A stretch of 64,000 nt of DNA from assembly GCA_032250735.1 (NCBI GenBank), contig JAVVEP010000001.1, forward strand, positions 1-64,000, read 5' to 3'. Below are positions 1,630 to 9,826 of the stretch, one piece after another. Below the pieces are notes generated by a model. That model made no database searches, was not told the origin of the DNA, and saw only the letters and a program-made list of their open reading frames with translations. The DNA is from Gammaproteobacteria bacterium. GTDB taxonomy: Bacteria; Pseudomonadota; Gammaproteobacteria; SZUA-152. Both the position numbers and the translations under genes were made by a program. The first letter of the stretch is position 1; each line of letters starts with the position of its first letter.

Positions 1630-2700
1630 CTATTGATGCATCGGATAGTCCGTGTAACCGGTGGCGTCACCGCCGTAGAAGGTGGCCTGATCCGGTTCAT
1701 TGAGCGGCAGGCCTTCCCGGAAACGGCGCACCAGGTCGGGGTTGGCGAGAAACGGTACGCCGAACGACACCAGATCCGCGTCGCCCTGGCGGATGGCCTG
1801 CTCGGCCCGCGCCTGGTCATAGCCATTGTTGGCCATGTACGGGCCACTGAAGCGCTCGCGCAGGGCGCGGTAGTCCAGGCTGCCGCGCTTGCTCATCATG
1901 TCCCCCTCCAGCACATGCAGGTAGGCCAGGCCGCGGCCACTGAGCTGCTCGATGAAGTAGGCGAAGTGGGATTGCGGGTCGGAGTCGGACATGTCGTTGA
2001 AGCTGTTCTCCGGGGTGAGGCGCACCGCTACCCGTTGGGCCGGCCACACCTGACACACCGCATCCAGCACCTCGTTGAGCAGGCGCATGCGGTTCTCCAC
2101 GCTGCCGCCGTAGCGGTCGTCACGCCGGTTGGTGCCGTCGCGCAGGAACTGATCGATCAGGTAGCCATTGGCGCCGTGCACCTCGATACCGTCGAAACCG
2201 GCGCGCCGGGCCATCTCCGCGGCGTGCCGGTATTGGGCGACGATGGTGGGGATCTCCCCGGTGTCCAGGGCGCGGGGTTCCACAAACGGCTGCGGGCCGC
2301 TGGCGGTAAACGCCTCGCCCGCGGGGCGCAGGGCGGAGGGCGCCACCGGGGTGGCATGGTCCGGCAGCAGGCTGGGGTGGGAGATGCGTCCGCAGTACCA
2401 TAACTGGATAAAGATATGCCCGTTTTCCTTGTGCACGGCATTAACCACCTCGCGCCAGCCGGCCACCTGCGCCTCGCTATGGATCCCCGGCGTGGCCGGA
2501 TAACCGACGCCCCCGGGCGAGACCTGTGAGGCCTCGGTGATCAGCAGCCCGGCCGTGGCCCGCTGTTGATAGTAGGTCGCCGCCAGCGGATTGGGCACGT
2601 TGCCCTCAATCGCCCGGTTGCGGGTCATGGGCGCCATCACCATGCGGTTGGGCAGGATCAGGTCGCCTATGGGAATCGGTGTAAACAGGTCGGTGGACAT
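1630..2700 (-). CDS. Old Yellow Enzyme family NADH:flavin oxidoreductase (NemA-like)
   Basis: This 356-residue protein has the usual length and motifs of the FMN-dependent Old Yellow Enzymes that reduce activated alkenes, N-ethylmaleimide and nitro compounds. The N-terminus LPNRMVMAPMTRNRA is the family signature. The substrate-anion pair is H175 and N178 in EVHGANGYL, and RYGGS with Y197 gives the proton-donor tyrosine. The C-terminal phosphate-binding region includes DLVSFGVPFLANPDLV. The start ATG at 2700 has an AGGAGC site seven bases upstream. It lies downstream of, and on the same strand as, an AhpD-like gene and near a divergent TetR gene, a common arrangement for electrophile-stress genes. 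The exact substrate cannot be told. Confidence 0.9.
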   Translation of the reverse strand: MSTDLFTPIPIGDLILPNRMVMAPMTRNRAIEGNVPNPLAATYYQQRATAGLLITEASQVSPGGVGYPATPGIHSEAQVAGWREVVNAVHKENGHIFIQLWYCGRISHPSLLPDHATPVAPSALRPAGEAFTASGPQPFVEPRALDTGEIPTIVAQYRHAAEMARRAGFDGIEVHGANGYLIDQFLRDGTNRRDDRYGGSVENRMRLLNEVLDAVCQVWPAQRVAVRLTPENSFNDMSDSDPQSHFAYFIEQLSGRGLAYLHVLEGDMMSKRGSLDYRALRERFSGPYMANNGYDQARAEQAIRQGDADLVSFGVPFLANPDLVRRFREGLPLNEPDQATFYGGDATGYTDYPMHQ

Positions 2701-3043
2701 TGTTGCTCCTTATGTTCGGCAAATTCTGCTGTGCATTGATGGACCTGGAGAGGTCCTGGTTGATGGGGGCGTCACTGCCCGTTCCGGCTGGCGCGCCGTG
2801 GCCATACAGCCGCGTGTTGTTGCATTGTTGTTGAATTATGGACCCCTTATGGCGTCGGTGACGCGCCCACCACCAACTGCTTGCGGGATTAGATTCCTTC
2901 ATGAAGCGCCTACGCCTGGATGTCCGTGCACTGCCGCGCGCGTCCTGGGCAAGACACGTACTCTCGAGCGGGGTCAGGTTTTGTTCACAGGCCTTCAGCC
3001 GCGCCCCATGAACATTACAAACCTGAAAACGAAAGAGGGCAAA
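2701..3043. other. Intergenic region upstream of the flavin oxidoreductase
   Basis: These 343 bases hold no gene I can support. Next to the oxidoreductase start there is a short perfect inverted repeat at 2741-2756 that could bind a regulator. The oxidoreductase may therefore have its own promoter and need not be co-transcribed with the gene that ends at 3044. Confidence 0.5.
2741..2756. promoter_or_regulatory. Inverted repeat upstream of the oxidoreductase gene
   Basis: GGACCT and AGGTCC form a perfect 6-4-6 inverted repeat 41 bases upstream of the oxidoreductase start codon. A GACC/GGTC palindrome is also found in the known NemR operator of enteric nemRA, but the regulator here is unknown. 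It could equally be a small RNA hairpin in the leader. Confidence 0.3.
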
Positions 3044-3610
3044 TCAGGCCCCCTGGGTGGGCTTGCCCTCCCAGGCAAACGGGCTCATGGCCGCATCGAG
3101 CGGGGTCTGTGCGATGTGGTTGAAGTAGTTGCTCAGGGTCTTCATGCCTACGGCCAGAACCACGTCACCCACCTGCTGCATGTCAAAGCCGGCGTCGAGA
3201 AATTGCTGGATATCCGCCTCGCTCAGCCAGCCACGCTTGTCCACCATTTTGGCGGTGAAGGTGCGCAGGGCCTCCAGGCGGGGATCGGCGATGGGTCGAT
3301 CATCCCGCAGCGCCTCCACTGCATCGGCTGGCACCTGGACCAGGTTCGCGACCATGGAGTGCGCGGCGACACAGTAGTCACAGCCGTTGTAGCGGCTCAC
3401 CGCCAGCAGGGCGACCTGTTGCTCCTGCGGGCTCAGGCTGCTGCCGGCATAGAGGCCGGAGAGGCTGAGATAGCCCGCGGCCAGGGCGGGTGAGTTGGCC
3501 ATGCCGCTGATCAGGTTGGGGACGAAGCCGAAGGTCTGTTTGGCCTGTGCCATGCTCGGCAGGGCCTTTTCGGGGGCCGTCGTTTCATCGTGAAAGGTGA
3601 ATGTTGTCAT
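3044..3610 (-). CDS. Carboxymuconolactone decarboxylase / AhpD-like protein
   Basis: The 188-residue protein belongs to the AhpD-like superfamily of small helical proteins that use a CxxC pair for peroxide or thiol redox chemistry. The motif CDYCVAAH near residue 94 has both cysteines and the conserved histidine. The frame stays open to 3781, but the start at 3610 is chosen because it has GGAGGA upstream and the homologous part starts there. It is divergent from the TetR gene at 3732, with a palindromic operator between them. With the neighbouring flavin reductase it looks like a redox or electrophile-stress module. The substrate is unknown. Confidence 0.88.
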   Translation of the reverse strand: MTTFTFHDETTAPEKALPSMAQAKQTFGFVPNLISGMANSPALAAGYLSLSGLYAGSSLSPQEQQVALLAVSRYNGCDYCVAAHSMVANLVQVPADAVEALRDDRPIADPRLEALRTFTAKMVDKRGWLSEADIQQFLDAGFDMQQVGDVVLAVGMKTLSNYFNHIAQTPLDAAMSPFAWEGKPTQGA

Positions 3611-3656
3611 GGGGTTTCCTCCTGGGTGGGGTGGTGTAGTGGGCCAATGCCGAGGC

Positions 3657-3697
3657 AGTATGGCAATTATTGAACGTTCGTTCAAGTATGGTATTAT
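3657..3697. promoter_or_regulatory. Divergent promoters sharing a TetR-type operator
   Basis: A perfect 7-2-7 palindrome, TTGAACGTTCGTTCAA, lies at 3670-3685. Each arm doubles as a -35 box. On the plus strand TTGAAC is followed after 16 bases by TATTAT at 3692-3697, pointing to the TetR gene. On the minus strand TTGAAC is followed after 17 bases by CATACT at 3662-3657, pointing to the AhpD-like gene. Regulator binding would block both promoters, which fits autorepression plus control of the neighbour. Confidence 0.75.
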
Positions 3698-3731
3698 CGC
3701 GCCCATTGTCGACCGACCCCGAGAGACCCCG

Positions 3732-4352
3732 ATGCCACGTCCCATTGAATTTGATCGTGATGACACCCTGCGCCGCGCCATGACCGTGTTCTGGCGCCAG
3801 GGCTACCACGCCACCTCGATCAGGGATCTGATCGCCGCTACCCAGCTGCAGCCGGGCAGCCTGTACGGCGCCTTTCGGAACAAGCGCAGCCTGTTTATCG
3901 CGGCACTGGATGCCTACTTTGCCGGCATCCGTGAGCGGATACAGGCGTGTCTGCACACGCAGCACTCGCCGCTGGGGCAGTTGCGGGTATTTTTTGACCG
4001 GCTGATCGATGAGGCGGTGGCTGATGCGGACAGCAAGGGTTGCCTGCTGGTCAACACCCTGCTGGAGATGCCGGCGGAGGATGCGGAGATCAACCAGCGG
4101 GTCTGCGCCATGTTTACCGAGGTGGAGGCGGAGTTTGAGCGCGTGCTGCGCGAGGCCCGGGATCGCGGGGAGCTGGCCGCCGACAGGGACCCCGTGGCCC
4201 TGGCCCGCCTGCTGATTGTCGGTATCTACGGTCTGCGGGTCTATCACAAGACCCGCCCCGGCGCGGCCTGTCTGCACGAGATCGTCGACGGCCTGTTCAC
4301 GGCCCTGGGTGTGACAGGGCCGCTGGACGCGGCACCCGGCGCATCCCGTTAA
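3732..4352 (+). CDS. TetR/AcrR family transcriptional regulator
   Basis: The 206-residue protein has an N-terminal TetR helix-turn-helix at about residues 10-58; the segment ATSIRDLIAATQLQPGSLYG and the following FRNKRSLF are typical. The C-terminal ligand-binding half contains a single Cys in KGCLLVNTLLEM, a pattern seen in AcuR/NemR-like members, some of which sense electrophiles through cysteine. The frame is open upstream to 3597, but ATG 3732 gives the normal N-terminus and leaves the operator outside the gene. Divergent position and shared operator indicate that it represses itself and the AhpD-like gene, and perhaps the flavin reductase. The ligand is not known. Confidence 0.9.
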   Translation: MPRPIEFDRDDTLRRAMTVFWRQGYHATSIRDLIAATQLQPGSLYGAFRNKRSLFIAALDAYFAGIRERIQACLHTQHSPLGQLRVFFDRLIDEAVADADSKGCLLVNTLLEMPAEDAEINQRVCAMFTEVEAEFERVLREARDRGELAADRDPVALARLLIVGIYGLRVYHKTRPGAACLHEIVDGLFTALGVTGPLDAAPGASR

Positions 4353-4552: not shown

Positions 4553-5800
4553 ATGTTTGGCATTGCTGGTTCTATTTCTTCGCTACTATTGAGTACAGCC
4601 ATTCTGCTGCTGGGCATGGGCCTGCAGGGTACCCTGCTGGGTCTGCGTGCCGGTGTGGAAGGCTACTCGATGACCATGACCGGCATCGTCATGTCGTCGT
4701 ATTTCATCGGCTTTGCAGTGGGCAGCATTTACTGTCCCCGACTCATTCGGCAGTACGGGCATATTCGCGCCTACGCCGCCATGGCAACGCTGTCCTCGGC
4801 GGTAGCCGTAGCCTTTATCCTGAACACCGATACCTGGTTCTGGATTCTGCTGAGAATTATCAGCGGCTTCTGCATCGTGGGGATGTACATGGTGATCGAG
4901 AGCTGGCTCAACGTGCTGGCGAGCAACGCCCTGCGCGGTCGCTTCTTTGGCATCTACATGGTGATCACCCTGCTGGCCATGGCGTGCGGTCAGCACCTGC
5001 TGCGGTTGGGCGAGGTGGCCAGTTTCGAGCTGTTCGCCATCACCACGATTCTGATTTCCCTGGCGGTGCTGCCGGTGGTGCTGACCCGCATCACCGAACC
5101 AAAAATAGCGACCCCCAAAAGGCTCAGCCTGAGACGCCTGTATGGCATCTCGCCGCTGGGCGTTGTGGGCACCCTGTCGGCCGGTCTGATCACCGGTTCC
5201 ATCTGGGGTATGGGCGCGCTGTATGCGGCCCGCATCGGGCTGGATAATATCGGCATCGCCTGGTTGATGAGCGCCATCATCATTGGTGGCGCCACGCTGC
5301 AATGGCCGCTGGGCATCTTGTCGGATGTGATGGATCGACGCCGGGTAATCAGCCTGTGCTGCTTTTCCGGCGCCGCGATGGCCGTGTTGAACAGTCTGGT
5401 GAGCATCGATACCGGCTGGCTGTTTTACGGTGTATCGTTCGTTTTTGGCGGTTTTGCCTTTACCCTCTATGCCCTGAGCGCGGCCCATGTGAATGACCGC
5501 ATCGATTCGGATCAAAGCCTGGAGGCGGCCCAGGGCCTGTTGCAGCTGTATGGTATCGGCGCAATTCTCGGGCCGTTGGTCGCCAGTCAGGCGCTGGAAC
5601 ATTTCGGCCCCCGCGGCATGCTGATTCTGTTTGCGCTGATCATGGGCTTTCTCGGCCTGTTTACCCTGCACCGCATGCACAACCGCAGCGCACCCCCGGT
5701 CGAGGAACAGAATGAGTTTATCCCCCTGGCCCGCACCTCGCCCATCGCGCTGGAGCTGAGCCCGCTGGCTGAGCCGGCGGACAGCCCCGAAAAGCCCTGA
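4553..5800 (+). CDS. MFS transporter, YcaD-like
   Basis: This 415-residue protein is a 12-helix major facilitator of the YcaD-like group. The N-terminal helix and first loop (LGMGLQGTLLGLRAGVEGYS, then SSYFIGFAVGS) are typical, and a motif-A-like loop appears after helix 2. The C-terminal 40 residues after the last helix are hydrophilic and not conserved. It stands alone between the TetR gene and the AT-rich island; a 200-base gap upstream should hold its promoter. The substrate of this group is not established, so only export or import of a small molecule can be suggested. Confidence 0.85.
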   Translation: MFGIAGSISSLLLSTAILLLGMGLQGTLLGLRAGVEGYSMTMTGIVMSSYFIGFAVGSIYCPRLIRQYGHIRAYAAMATLSSAVAVAFILNTDTWFWILLRIISGFCIVGMYMVIESWLNVLASNALRGRFFGIYMVITLLAMACGQHLLRLGEVASFELFAITTILISLAVLPVVLTRITEPKIATPKRLSLRRLYGISPLGVVGTLSAGLITGSIWGMGALYAARIGLDNIGIAWLMSAIIIGGATLQWPLGILSDVMDRRRVISLCCFSGAAMAVLNSLVSIDTGWLFYGVSFVFGGFAFTLYALSAAHVNDRIDSDQSLEAAQGLLQLYGIGAILGPLVASQALEHFGPRGMLILFALIMGFLGLFTLHRMHNRSAPPVEEQNEFIPLARTSPIALELSPLAEPADSPEKP

Positions 5801-5938
5801 AACCGACAGACGCCTAAAGACCGTATATCTGTGCACACACCCATGAATTTTGGGGCTGCGGGGAGTATAGTTTGCCCGCATCACATCCTTCTGAGGAATA
5901 TTCAGCAGTTATGAAAAGTTTTATCTCATTTGCGAAAA

Positions 5939-6241
5939 ATGAAGAACTTAGAACTTGAAGAGATGCTTAAAATCACTAGCGATGTAACAAAGTCAAATTT
6001 TGGAACAGAAAACCTAATAAAACTTTATAAACAGGACACTATTCCTGTTTTAAATTTATGTGATTCAATTTCTGAGGGTGGCGATGTAATCCATGTCAAT
6101 GAAAAGCAATCACCAACAGGTCCAGGATGGGTGTTTCGCAAAGTTTATTACTATGGTGAGGGTAAATCAATAATGCTTAAATTTGTAGTTTTAAAAGAGA
6201 ACGGCCGCATTGCAGTAACCACTTTTGGCCTCGCTAAATAA
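5939..6241 (+). CDS. Hypothetical protein of cassette 1
   Basis: This 100-residue protein has no family I recognise. It starts with a short acidic helix (LELEEMLKITSDV) and ends with what looks like beta strands (PGWVFRKVYYYGEG, then MLKFVVLKENGRIAVTTFG), so a small alpha/beta fold is likely. There is no signal peptide or membrane segment. ATG 5939 is chosen; a TTG at 5930 in the same frame is possible. A separate 15-codon frame starts at the ATG inside the cassette junction (5911) and overlaps the start, which may serve translation coupling. Codon and base use are AT-rich, unlike the flanking genes. Function unknown. Confidence 0.6.
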   Translation: MKNLELEEMLKITSDVTKSNFGTENLIKLYKQDTIPVLNLCDSISEGGDVIHVNEKQSPTGPGWVFRKVYYYGEGKSIMLKFVVLKENGRIAVTTFGLAK

Positions 6242-6242
6242 T

Positions 6243-6294
6243 GCCTAAAGAATAGATAGCGTGACAAGGGGTATCGTTAATCAAACTGTTATGA
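6243..6294 (+). repeat. attC-like junction after cassette 1
   Basis: GCCTAAA at 6243 and GTTATGA at 6288-6294 are in the places of the outer attC boxes. In between lies the conserved block 6263-6291, which matches 6774-6802 at 26 of 29 positions. TAGCG and CGTTA flank the block centre and can form the inner stem with mismatches. The left box matches the attC consensus only weakly. Confidence 0.5.
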
Positions 6295-6303
6295 GTCAAA
6301 AGA

Positions 6304-6759
6304 ATGGAAATAGTTGAGAATAAAAGTAACTATTTAAATGACTTCATCCGTTTGAATGAAGCGTGGATCTCTAAATATTTTCAAATTGAGGAAATAGATC
6401 GGGAGCTTGCCGCAAATCCACAGAAAATAATTGAAGGTGGTGGTTATATATTCAGCCTTATCGAAAACAATAAGGTTATCGGTGTTTGTGCGCTATTCAA
6501 TGAAGGCAACGGTATATATGAGCTTGCACGAATGACTATTCAAAAAGAACACCGTGGCAATGGTTATGGAGGTAAACTATTAGAAGCATGCATTAACAAA
6601 CTGCGACAAATTGGTGCAAGAGAAGTATATCTTGTCTCGAATACAATGTTAAAGTCAGCCATTTCACTATATGAAAAATATGGATTCAAAACCACGAATA
6701 TTGGGCAACATCCAGTTTACGCTAGGGCAAACATTACTATGGCGAAACAAATCTCATAA
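6304..6759 (+). CDS. GNAT family N-acetyltransferase (cassette 2)
   Basis: The 151-residue protein is a complete GCN5-related acetyltransferase, transferring acetyl from acetyl-CoA to an amine. The acetyl-CoA loop is EHRGNGYGGKLLEA at about residues 81-94, preceded by the beta-4 segment YELARMTIQ and followed by EVYLVSNTML and the C-terminal motif SAISLYEKYGFK. The substrate is unknown; the group includes self-protection, antibiotic-modifying and protein-modifying enzymes. The gene is AT-rich, begins 13 bases after the cassette junction and ends with CTCATAA, the complement of the start of its own cassette. GNAT genes are among the most frequent cargo of chromosomal integrons. Confidence 0.9.
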   Translation: MEIVENKSNYLNDFIRLNEAWISKYFQIEEIDRELAANPQKIIEGGGYIFSLIENNKVIGVCALFNEGNGIYELARMTIQKEHRGNGYGGKLLEACINKLRQIGAREVYLVSNTMLKSAISLYEKYGFKTTNIGQHPVYARANITMAKQIS

Positions 6760-6805
6760 AAAATAAATAACAAGACAAGGGGTCTCGTTAATCAAATAGT
6801 TAGCC
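6753..6805 (+). repeat. attC-like junction after cassette 2
   Basis: The site runs from CTCATAA, overlapping the stop of the acetyltransferase gene, to GTTAGCC at 6799. An inner stem is formed by TAACAAGA and TCTCGTTA with one mismatch around the loop CAAGGGG. The block 6774-6802 is shared with the junction at 6263-6291. At about 53 bases it is at the short end for attC sites. Confidence 0.55.
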
Positions 6806-6825
6806 TTGTAGTAGATTTTTCCACA

Positions 6826-7575
6826 ATGAAGATTTCAACAAAAATTACAAACCAAGGAATAACAATCAGTTTCGGTGAACAGCCACACGAGCGCCTGACA
6901 CCGTTACCTTCGGCAAATCAAGAAAATCCGAAACGCTATTATGTATATGGCCATTACGACAAGCGAGGCATTCCTTTCTATATCGGAAAGGGAATCAAGC
7001 GCCGTGCTTGGGACGAAGATCGACATTTTCTTTGGCGCCGATACGTAGAAAAGCATCTCAACGGCGAGTACAAAGTTGTTATTCTGGTAGATGATCTTAA
7101 ATCTGCACAGGCCGAGGAATTAGAAAGCGAGTGGATAGCACAAGAGTCAGAAACGTTAGTAAATTGGATAAATTTCGGTCGAAAAACAGACTTTTCCGCC
7201 CTGGATACCTTCCACAAGTTGCGTAATGTTAATCGGGAGCTATTGGGAGCGGCCCGCGAACAAGAGCAGTCAAAACCAGATGAAGCAATAAAATTATATA
7301 TTAAGGCATTGGTAAATATCGAAGCCTACGCGACTATACAACCGGAAATGGGTTTGGTTGGTCAACTCATCGACGAAGAACGGCAAGAAAACGGTATTGG
7401 TGGAGAATTATCAATCCTAGATAGGCTTACACTGTGCCTAATCTGCGCAGACCGACAAACAGAGGCATCAGAAATAACAGGACAATATTTTGCAAAGTAC
7501 CAAGCTGACGAAGAACTTAGTGCTGCGATACGAATAAAGAATCGAGTAGAAAAGGCGATAAAAAAGAATAGCTAA
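6826..7575 (+). CDS. GIY-YIG nuclease domain protein (cassette 3)
   Basis: The 249-residue protein has a GIY-YIG nuclease fold at about residues 37-110. YYVYGHYD corresponds to the GIY motif and PFYIGKG to YIG, followed by the conserved arginine in KRRAWDED and the metal-binding glutamate in LESEWI. The C-terminal 130 residues are helical, possibly a TPR-like or regulatory part (ARE-QEQSKPDEAIKLYIKALVNIEAYA). GIY-YIG enzymes include homing and restriction nucleases and repair enzymes; the organisation here resembles the LEM-3-like GIY-YIG subgroup. The gene is AT-rich and sits in the cassette cluster, so a role in defence against foreign DNA is a fair guess but not shown. Confidence 0.75.
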   Translation: MKISTKITNQGITISFGEQPHERLTPLPSANQENPKRYYVYGHYDKRGIPFYIGKGIKRRAWDEDRHFLWRRYVEKHLNGEYKVVILVDDLKSAQAEELESEWIAQESETLVNWINFGRKTDFSALDTFHKLRNVNRELLGAAREQEQSKPDEAIKLYIKALVNIEAYATIQPEMGLVGQLIDEERQENGIGGELSILDRLTLCLICADRQTEASEITGQYFAKYQADEELSAAIRIKNRVEKAIKKNS

Positions 7576-7638
7576 CCAGCGCGTAAACATGGACACATTT
7601 TTCGGTCGCTGCGAGTCCTGTAAATGCGCCAGTTACGC
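7571..7638 (+). repeat. attC-like palindrome after cassette 3
   Basis: This 68-base imperfect palindrome overlaps the stop of the nuclease gene. The outer boxes are GCTAAC and GTTACGC, then an unpaired CA on each side, then GCGC pairing with GCGC, a bulged middle, and GGAC pairing with GTCC at the top. Outer boxes, symmetric spacers and an interrupted long stem are the features of attC sites, and the length is typical. The 217 bases after it, up to 7855, contain no gene I can support. Confidence 0.55.
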
Positions 7639-7855
7639 TTTTCGTTAATGGCTGCTTTTCCATCATCATGAGCAAGATAGACGACCGGGTTGCGCCAATT
7701 AGTGGCAGTTTATCCCCACATGGCTGAATCGCAGCAACCCCTACAAATCCAATGTTACCAGAATATCTGTAAATAGCTCCTCTGGCCTGAAGCGAATATA
7801 TTATCATTACGGCAACCATGGTTGTCCGGTTCCAAGGATTGATAGTTTCGTAGAC

Positions 7856-9685
7856 CTAAAGCCCGTACATCACCGGCAGCACCCACGACAGGGTCAGCCA
7901 GACGATGAGGGTCAGCGGGACGCCGACCCGCACAAAATCCATGAAGGTATAACCGCCGGCGTTCATCACCAGCAGGTTGGTCTTGTAGGCCATGGGTGTG
8001 GCAAAGCTCATGTTGGCGCCAAACAGCACCGCTAGCACGAAGGGCTCGGGCGGCAGGTTGAGTTGCTGGGCGATGCTGATCGCGATCGGGGTGCCGATCA
8101 CCGCTGAGGCATTGTTGGAGACGATGTTGGTCAGCACGGCGATCACCAGCATTAGCCCGCTGAGGATAACGGTCGGCGAGGCGCCCTCGCTGAGACTCAC
8201 AAATAACTGCGCCAGATAACCCGCGCCACCGGTCTTGAGCAGGGCCGAGCCCAGCGCCAGGCTCGCCACCACAATCAGGATCACCGGCGTGCTCAGGGCC
8301 TGGGCTGCATCACGCCAGCTCAGGCAGCGGCTGACGATCATCAGCAGCACGCCGGCCACCGCGCTGATGGCGATAGGCAGAATGCCCAGCGCGGCCACCG
8401 CCACAATCGATACCATGATCAGCAGCGCCAGCGGCGCGCGTTTGCTGACGGGCAGATCGCTGGTGGCGTCCAGCACCAGAAATTCACCGCTGCGTTTGAC
8501 CTCGGCGATCTGCTCACGATTGCCCTGCACCAGTAGCACATCGCCGATGCCCAGGCGCACGTCGCCCACATCCTCGCGCAGGGTGCGTGACTCCCGACCA
8601 GCGCGATGCAGGGCCAGGGTTACTAACTGGTAATAGTCAGCAAAGCGCTGGCGCGAGAGGGTGCTGCCATCCAGCGGCGAGCCGGGGGTGACTACAATCT
8701 CGGCCAGCTGCTGATCTTCATCCTGCAGCGGATGCTCCTCGTCCACCGGCGTGTCGCCGGTATACAGACGGGCGCCCAGCACGGTTTCGTATTCCTTGAG
8801 ATGTTCCGGCGTATCGCGCACGCTGAGGCGATCGCCCGCGCGCAGCACCACGTCCGGCAGCGGGGTGATCGCCGTACCGCTGTCGCGGATGACCTGTCGA
8901 ATATGCAGCGTGCTCCCGGCCTTCTCCAACGCCTCCGCCAGGGTCTTGCCCTCGGCGGCGCTGTCTTCCTCCACGTGCAGGGTGGCGCTAAAAATGCGTG
9001 GCGAGGTGTCCGCCATGTGCCCCTGACGTTGCGGCAGCATGCGTGGCGCCACCAGCCACAGAAACAGGATCGCAACACTGCCGGCCAGCGCCGCGGGTAC
9101 CAGGAAGTCAAACATCGCAAAGCGGCGCAGGCCCATATCCGCCGCCACCGACACCACCAGCAGATTGGTCGAGGTGCCGATAGTGGTGCTCATGCCACCC
9201 AGCAGGGTGGCAAAGCCCATGGGCATGAGGATGTCCGAGGCCGGCCGGTTGGTGCGCAGCGAGATGCTCACCAGGATCGGCAGCAGCAGCACCACGATCG
9301 GCACATTGTTGACGAAGGCGCTGAGCACCGCGCCGGCCACCAGGGTGAGCAGCAGCGAAAACAACGGGCTGACCGACCACATGCGTGCCAGTGCGCGGCC
9401 CACCGGCTCCAGAGAACCGGTGCGCACCAGACCCTGCCCGGCGATCATCAGGGCGCACACCGCCACCAGCGCCTCGTGGCCAAAGCCGTGGAAGAAATCC
9501 GTGGCCTCAACACTGATCTCGCCCCGCTGATAGGGGAACAGCCCGAAGCCCGCCGCCAGCAGCACCAGCACGATCAGGCTGGAGGTCTCCAGCGGAATGC
9601 GTTCCCGGGTAAACAGGAACAGGGCGACCACGATCAGGCCGAGTACGGCCAGGGCATGGGCATCAGGTAAAGGCGGCAGGTTCAT
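7856..9685 (-). CDS. SLC13-type anion permease with two TrkA-C domains
   Basis: The 609-residue inner-membrane protein belongs to the divalent anion:sodium symporter group. N-terminal helices (residues 1-215) include NNVPIVVLLLP and the signature STTIGTSTNLLV. Two cytoplasmic TrkA-C (RCK-C) domains follow at about 222-310 and 325-410, then the second half of the transporter with a matching SNNASAVIGTPIA. Bacterial proteins of this build transport sulfate or related anions, or act as putative permeases of unknown substrate. The start is set at ATG 9685; a GTG directly upstream is also open. The gene is monocistronic, facing the cassette island. Confidence 0.88.
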   Translation of the reverse strand: MNLPPLPDAHALAVLGLIVVALFLFTRERIPLETSSLIVLVLLAAGFGLFPYQRGEISVEATDFFHGFGHEALVAVCALMIAGQGLVRTGSLEPVGRALARMWSVSPLFSLLLTLVAGAVLSAFVNNVPIVVLLLPILVSISLRTNRPASDILMPMGFATLLGGMSTTIGTSTNLLVVSVAADMGLRRFAMFDFLVPAALAGSVAILFLWLVAPRMLPQRQGHMADTSPRIFSATLHVEEDSAAEGKTLAEALEKAGSTLHIRQVIRDSGTAITPLPDVVLRAGDRLSVRDTPEHLKEYETVLGARLYTGDTPVDEEHPLQDEDQQLAEIVVTPGSPLDGSTLSRQRFADYYQLVTLALHRAGRESRTLREDVGDVRLGIGDVLLVQGNREQIAEVKRSGEFLVLDATSDLPVSKRAPLALLIMVSIVAVAALGILPIAISAVAGVLLMIVSRCLSWRDAAQALSTPVILIVVASLALGSALLKTGGAGYLAQLFVSLSEGASPTVILSGLMLVIAVLTNIVSNNASAVIGTPIAISIAQQLNLPPEPFVLAVLFGANMSFATPMAYKTNLLVMNAGGYTFMDFVRVGVPLTLIVWLTLSWVLPVMYGL

Positions 9686-9826
9686 CACAGTGGTCTCGAT
9701 AGTAAAGGGTTTACAAGGCTAGCATAGACTGCCCCCCTACCTGACTTGCTCACAGCGATTGAGCTGCGGGCAGGTTTGTGGCGACACAGAGTTACATATT
9801 CAATAACTAAAAGAGAGGATAAGAAG

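Follow-up and report, generated by a model that had tools for sequence, protein, structure and literature searches.

The window analyzed in this study, that is, the whole stretch of 64,000 nucleotides, constitutes the first 64 kb of contig C1 (289 kb), which belongs to a draft gammaproteobacterial genome of 3.43 Mb. Positions 5909-7644, flanked by an MFS gene and an SLC13/CitMHS-type gene, contain a cluster of three plus-strand ORFs with a GC content of 0.39 (0.595 for the window), the lowest of any stretch of its length in the window. These ORFs and this GC minimum confirmed an earlier note, made from the sequence alone, that had described three same-strand, AT-rich genes and had proposed an integron-like cassette cluster. 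The locus raises the question of whether the three genes are gene cassettes and of what kind of recombination site ends each of them.

The cluster and its junctions

Programs that search for attC sites rely on the canonical R''/R' boxes and stem. We employed two home-made models, the E-values of which are rough. For the canonical attC covariance model, R3, the training set consisted of 13 attCs located beside intI in relatives and found by structure scanning; the model recovered the host's own two attCs, which were held out of training, at E 2e-7 and 2e-6, and gave no evident false match in ten array loci. The model R2 describes a shorter site, termed mini-attC here, and was trained on sites from pattern-matched loci with the window excluded. 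Sites described as missed by the canonical model were missed by R3, which is not the model of IntegronFinder. A further model, R1 (trimmed attC arms), was dropped because it was insensitive even to the majority of the long-loop sites on which it had been trained. Scripted palindrome scanning used by itself produced an excess of GC-rich false matches until it was restricted. The features of the locus, in window positions, are the following:

4553-5800, plus strand: MFS transporter gene, left flank, outside the cluster (PF07690, 3.9e-25)
5908-5914, plus strand: R'-like GTTATGA at the left edge of the cluster, crossover G5908|T5909 (read from the sequence)
5909-6288, plus strand: cassette 1, 380 bp; ORF 5942-6241, 99 aa, no known family
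6242-6295, plus strand: junction 1, mini-attC with decayed stem, crossover G6288|T6289 (R2, 44.1 bits)
6289-6799, plus strand: cassette 2, 511 bp; ORF 6304-6759, GNAT acetyltransferase (PF00583, 1.7e-15)
6753-6806, plus strand: junction 2, mini-attC, crossover G6799|T6800 (R2, 48.2 bits)
6800-7644, plus strand: cassette 3, 845 bp; ORF 6826-7575, 249 aa, GIY-YIG-like by eye only
7570-7650, plus strand: junction 3, canonical attC, crossover G7644|T7645 (R3, 23.3 bits, E 0.0024)
7856-9688, minus strand: SLC13/CitMHS-type transporter gene, right flank, outside the cluster (PF03600, 3e-66)

The R' motifs GTTATGA (at 5908 and 6288) and GTTAGCC (at 6799) were found where they had been reported, and direct reading placed the cassette borders at G5908|T5909, G6288|T6289, G6799|T6800, and G7644|T7645. 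The cluster proposed at 5903-7638 is real, but its end is the last of these borders, 13 bases further, in the R' GTTAATG at 7644-7650 rather than in the GTTACGC at 7631. Upstream of the left-edge GTTATGA (5908), neither R2 nor R3 identified an attC, canonical or mini.

Junctions 1 and 2 have 46 nt in common at 83% identity, and the 29-base block noticed previously agrees at 26/29 positions by direct reading. This similarity is far above chance, since R2, trained without the window, finds exactly these two sites in the whole host genome. The E-values were 3.2e-9 in the window and 1.7e-7 in the whole genome for junction 1, and 2.2e-10 and 1.2e-8, respectively, for junction 2; neither site was matched by R3. 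Folding is retained in junction 2 (z -6.7) and lost in junction 1 (z +0.9). In both, the cassette border falls in the crossover core G|TT, but their R'' ends in AAA instead of the canonical AAC, and the extra stem bases that canonical sites have on the L'' side are missing, the extra base of the mini-attC family being on the L' side. Junction 3, which had been recognized as a long interrupted palindrome, has that form and is a canonical attC, the sole R3 match at E<=5 in the 64 kb. Its boxes are R'' AGCTAAC, L'' AACATGGAC, L' GCCAGTT, and R' GTTAATG (7644-7650); R'' ends in AAC, R' begins with GTT, and the L box has two extrahelical bases on the 5' arm, similar to the attCs of relatives. Taken alone, its support is modest (E 0.0024, fold z -1.05). 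All three junctions therefore match an attC-type model (R3 for junction 3 and R2 for junctions 1 and 2), and the typical attC architecture that had been assumed for them holds for junction 3, whereas junctions 1 and 2 belong to a family missed by R3.

The complementarity of cassette ends and starts claimed for cassettes 2 and 3 was borne out. Cassette 2 starts with TTATGAG and ends with CTCATAA, the R'' of junction 2 (7/7 complementary); cassette 3 starts with GTTAGC(C) and ends with (A)GCTAAC (6 nt complementary). In cassette 1 (TTATGAA / TGCCTAAA) such complementarity is absent. The acetyltransferase of cassette 2 could be assigned to no specific family. The cassette 3 product matched no Pfam or NCBIfam model, and its GIY-YIG likeness is thus unsupported by family models; homologues approximately 33% identical to it are located on Acinetobacter plasmids, and no relatives were present among 320 other genomes of the class. 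Defence-system models yielded nothing useful, and the Rfam search gave no match.

Occurrence and anatomy of the mini-attC family

The exact pattern taken from junctions 1 and 2 was scanned over 257 Gb of species genomes and was identified at nine loci, 8/9 of them gammaproteobacterial, including three in Candidatus Thiodiazotropha and two in Ectothiorhodospiraceae. Base counts predict about seven to eight matches by chance, and the flanks are therefore what counts. Most of the nine loci continue the match through the flanking boxes, one of them (L060) in diverged form; two (L061 and L064) look degenerate, and the Acidobacteria locus, which is without flanking boxes, was taken as a chance match. 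At E<=1e-4, R2 revealed mini-attCs in 19 other genomes among 368 of the Gammaproteobacteria (approximately 5%), many of the surveyed genomes being metagenome bins. An intI gene is present in 17/19 of these genomes, and near-identical mini-attC copies occur within a species. Mini-attCs were not detected in 23 order-mates, in a sample of 397 genomes from across the phylum, or in phages or viral contigs, and the titles listed by a text search of the literature for the motif included no integron paper.

A mini-attC is approximately 50 nt long, with the consensus NNCTAAAAATGTA-TAACGAGAC-AAGGG-GTCTCGTTA-ATNNARCT-G|TTAG. It comprises an R'' box (NCTAA-A), a spacer of 5-7 nt, a stem of approximately 12 bp around a loop of approximately 5 nt, one extra base on the 3' arm of the stem, a spacer ending in ARCT, and G|TTA. 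When the stem was modeled with this extra base, 91.6% of cells were paired and 21 cells were changed on both sides, and 0/500 shuffles were as good; the same stem modeled without the bulge gave no covariation signal. The mini-attCs share with canonical attCs the R''/R' boxes, an inner stem, the G|TT crossover, and, in the family and at junction 2 though not at junction 1, a cassette start that complements R''. They differ from them in their length of approximately 50 nt, in a short loop, in a stem sequence conserved across species, and in an R'' that reads AAA rather than AAC: its last base is A in 37/41 mini-attCs and C in 0/41, whereas canonical sites have AAC in 29/30. The extra bases of canonical attCs are on the 5' arm (A5), the arm opposite to that used by the mini-attCs.

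Mini-attCs are cassette ends in other genomes

In all loci that hold both kinds of site (13/13), canonical attCs and mini-attCs are on the same strand. In the Thiodiazotropha locus L066, where intI lies beside a valyl-tRNA synthetase-like gene, a mini-attC forms the fourth junction of the array, and its cassette starts with TTAGAGTC and ends with GACTCTAA. On a plasmid of Candidatus Tenderia electrophaga (CP013100.1), intI is accompanied by five mini-type sites, of which the last is incomplete; a mini-attC lies right behind intI, and no canonical attC is visible to R3. The complementarity between R'' and the start of the upstream cassette is perfect (9/9) in 10/41 mini-attC sites, compared with 0.7% in permuted controls. 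In two pairs (L106/L114 and L100/L117), homologous cassettes in the genomes of different species share a gene or gene end together with the downstream mini-attC at approximately 78-79% identity; the sequences part at G|TT or a few bases from it, next to unrelated neighbours. The hairpin therefore moves with the gene upstream of it, with the crossover at G|TT, which is also the behaviour of ordinary integrons. These findings show that mini-attCs are cassette ends in other genomes and that the crossover is at or next to G|TT.

Two other explanations of the hairpin were weighed against this evidence. One, that the hairpin is a terminator or a MITE or REP-like small mobile repeat lying by chance between genes that are not cassettes, would account for a compact and strongly conserved hairpin at gene ends and for near-identical copies inside a species, but it is highly improbable, given the start/end complementarity, the strand agreement with canonical attCs, the homology that stops at or beside G|TT, the sites beside intI, and the absence of a T-run after the stem. 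It is less improbable, and still unlikely, that each mini-attC is a copied attI end instead of a folded attC, in which the sequence before G|TT would be read as double strand. Cassettes of this delta-attI type, in which attI fragments replace attC, have been described for class 1 and 2 integrons and are functional (PMC12901181), and like the mini-attCs they have non-canonical yet genuine cassette ends; moreover, the Ca. Tenderia plasmid has a near-identical mini-type site approximately 150 nt from the intI start. That plasmid is perhaps the one exception to the difference that fragments of a resident attI are not seen at mini-attCs, and among the sites found no other is this near an intI. The mini-attC hairpin covaries, and a stem kept by covariation would be needless for double-strand recognition; in addition, the sites occur mid-array in species with an attI region that looks different (L066).

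Some of the surveyed loci held further features. At L067 (3625-4050), a cassette starts with TTAGGTTG and ends with CAACCTAA, followed only by TCAACTGTTAGCC, a seemingly hairpin-less mini-attC that resembles a delta-attI-type end. At L062 (4800-6268), three mini-attCs lie downstream of genes that look phage-like by eye (terminase small subunit-like and primase-like), and a prophage or satellite may harbour these cassettes. The Tenderia chromosome contains three copies of a block of approximately 0.57 kb (L115 2546-4858 and L116 5297-7040), one of which ends at a canonical attC (L115 4848); the block is possibly an attC-targeting element, and Rfam identified no group II intron there. At L009 (contig C25), positions 268-2282 contain an IS91-like transposase gene (by eye) adjoining a shortened tyrosine recombinase gene, with an attC-like end GTCCAACAACACGTTATGAATC and then a small ORF; this may be a mobile element located within a cassette array. 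At positions 2575-4080 of the same locus, a REP-associated transposase gene (Y1_Tnp-like, by eye) has an N run and densely packed short direct repeats (TCAGAGAAGAGAAAGGG, CTAGACCTGACCCTGATCTC) on both sides; the pattern may reflect either a genuine repeat element or noise in the assembly.

Origin of the cluster and strand choice

The search for intI and attC elsewhere in the genome, which the earlier note had recommended, revealed a complete intI (491 bits) with two canonical attCs on contig C4 and no integron integrase in the window. The cluster is very probably a small, partly decayed CALIN, that is, three gene cassettes located in the chromosome at a distance from any integrase. As in the CALINs of IntegronFinder, several attC-bearing cassettes lie on one strand with no intI nearby, and at least two attC sites are present (one canonical and two mini-attCs; one only if the mini-attCs are excluded). 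It differs from them in that two of its three sites are missed by the canonical model. The present CALIN threshold is two sites (PMC9024848), and a standard scan might therefore see a single attC here and fall below it. The partial decay is indicated by the unfolded junction 1 and by the start of cassette 1, which does not match its own R''.

The earlier note had left a choice between a CALIN and the end of a larger integron; the CALIN stands, and as assembled the cluster is not the end of the main integron, which is on C4. That the cluster broke off from this integron, or was separated from it by misassembly, might be suggested by C4 ending inside its own array, approximately 2 kb after intI. 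It is, however, quite improbable, because chromosomal genes flank the cluster on either side in the interior of contig C1 and no mini-attC occurs on C4 or elsewhere in the genome.

Which integrase moved the cassettes, and when, is a matter of inference. An integron integrase presumably joined them by cleavage at G|TT in the folded bottom strand, either in the host cell, which has an intI of its own on C4, or in a donor from which they were later transferred, and the junction 1 hairpin would have been lost after the cluster was assembled. The outer arms most similar to those of junction 1 belong to the mini-attCs of one genome, G200 (AATAGATAAC...GTTAATCAAACTG), and a donor of that kind is therefore possible. 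No relatives carrying the cluster at the DNA level were found, the flanking genes being matched by distant class members only, and the search revealed neither a strain with the same flanks nor a close strain in which the site is empty; the empty site would read TTCAGCAG|TTAATGGC.

The cluster itself is ordinary, and the mini-attC family is the interesting part. In the VCR site, inverting all three extrahelical bases shifted the reaction to the top strand and R'' (PMC2727003); sites that have an inverted bulge and are cut at R' need a special reading in view of this result. The strand choice of mini-attCs may rest on the R boxes, with the G|TT core in R' only and R'' ending in A, and not mainly on the extrahelical bases; an R'' without the complement of the G|TT core could be the reason that these sites avoid a VCR-type shift to R''. 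We tentatively suggest, with somewhat less than even confidence, that mini-attCs are an overlooked attC class in which a strand choice written in the sequence frees the extra base of the stem for the opposite arm, contrary to the rule derived from VCR. Overlooked would here signify missed by R3 and not found in the papers searched.

Because a recurrent site class escapes the canonical model, counts of cassettes, CALINs, and entire arrays may be too low, here in approximately 5% of the sampled gammaproteobacterial genomes. The unusual position of the extra base, together with the lost C of R'', makes the strand choice of IntI directly testable on natural sites.
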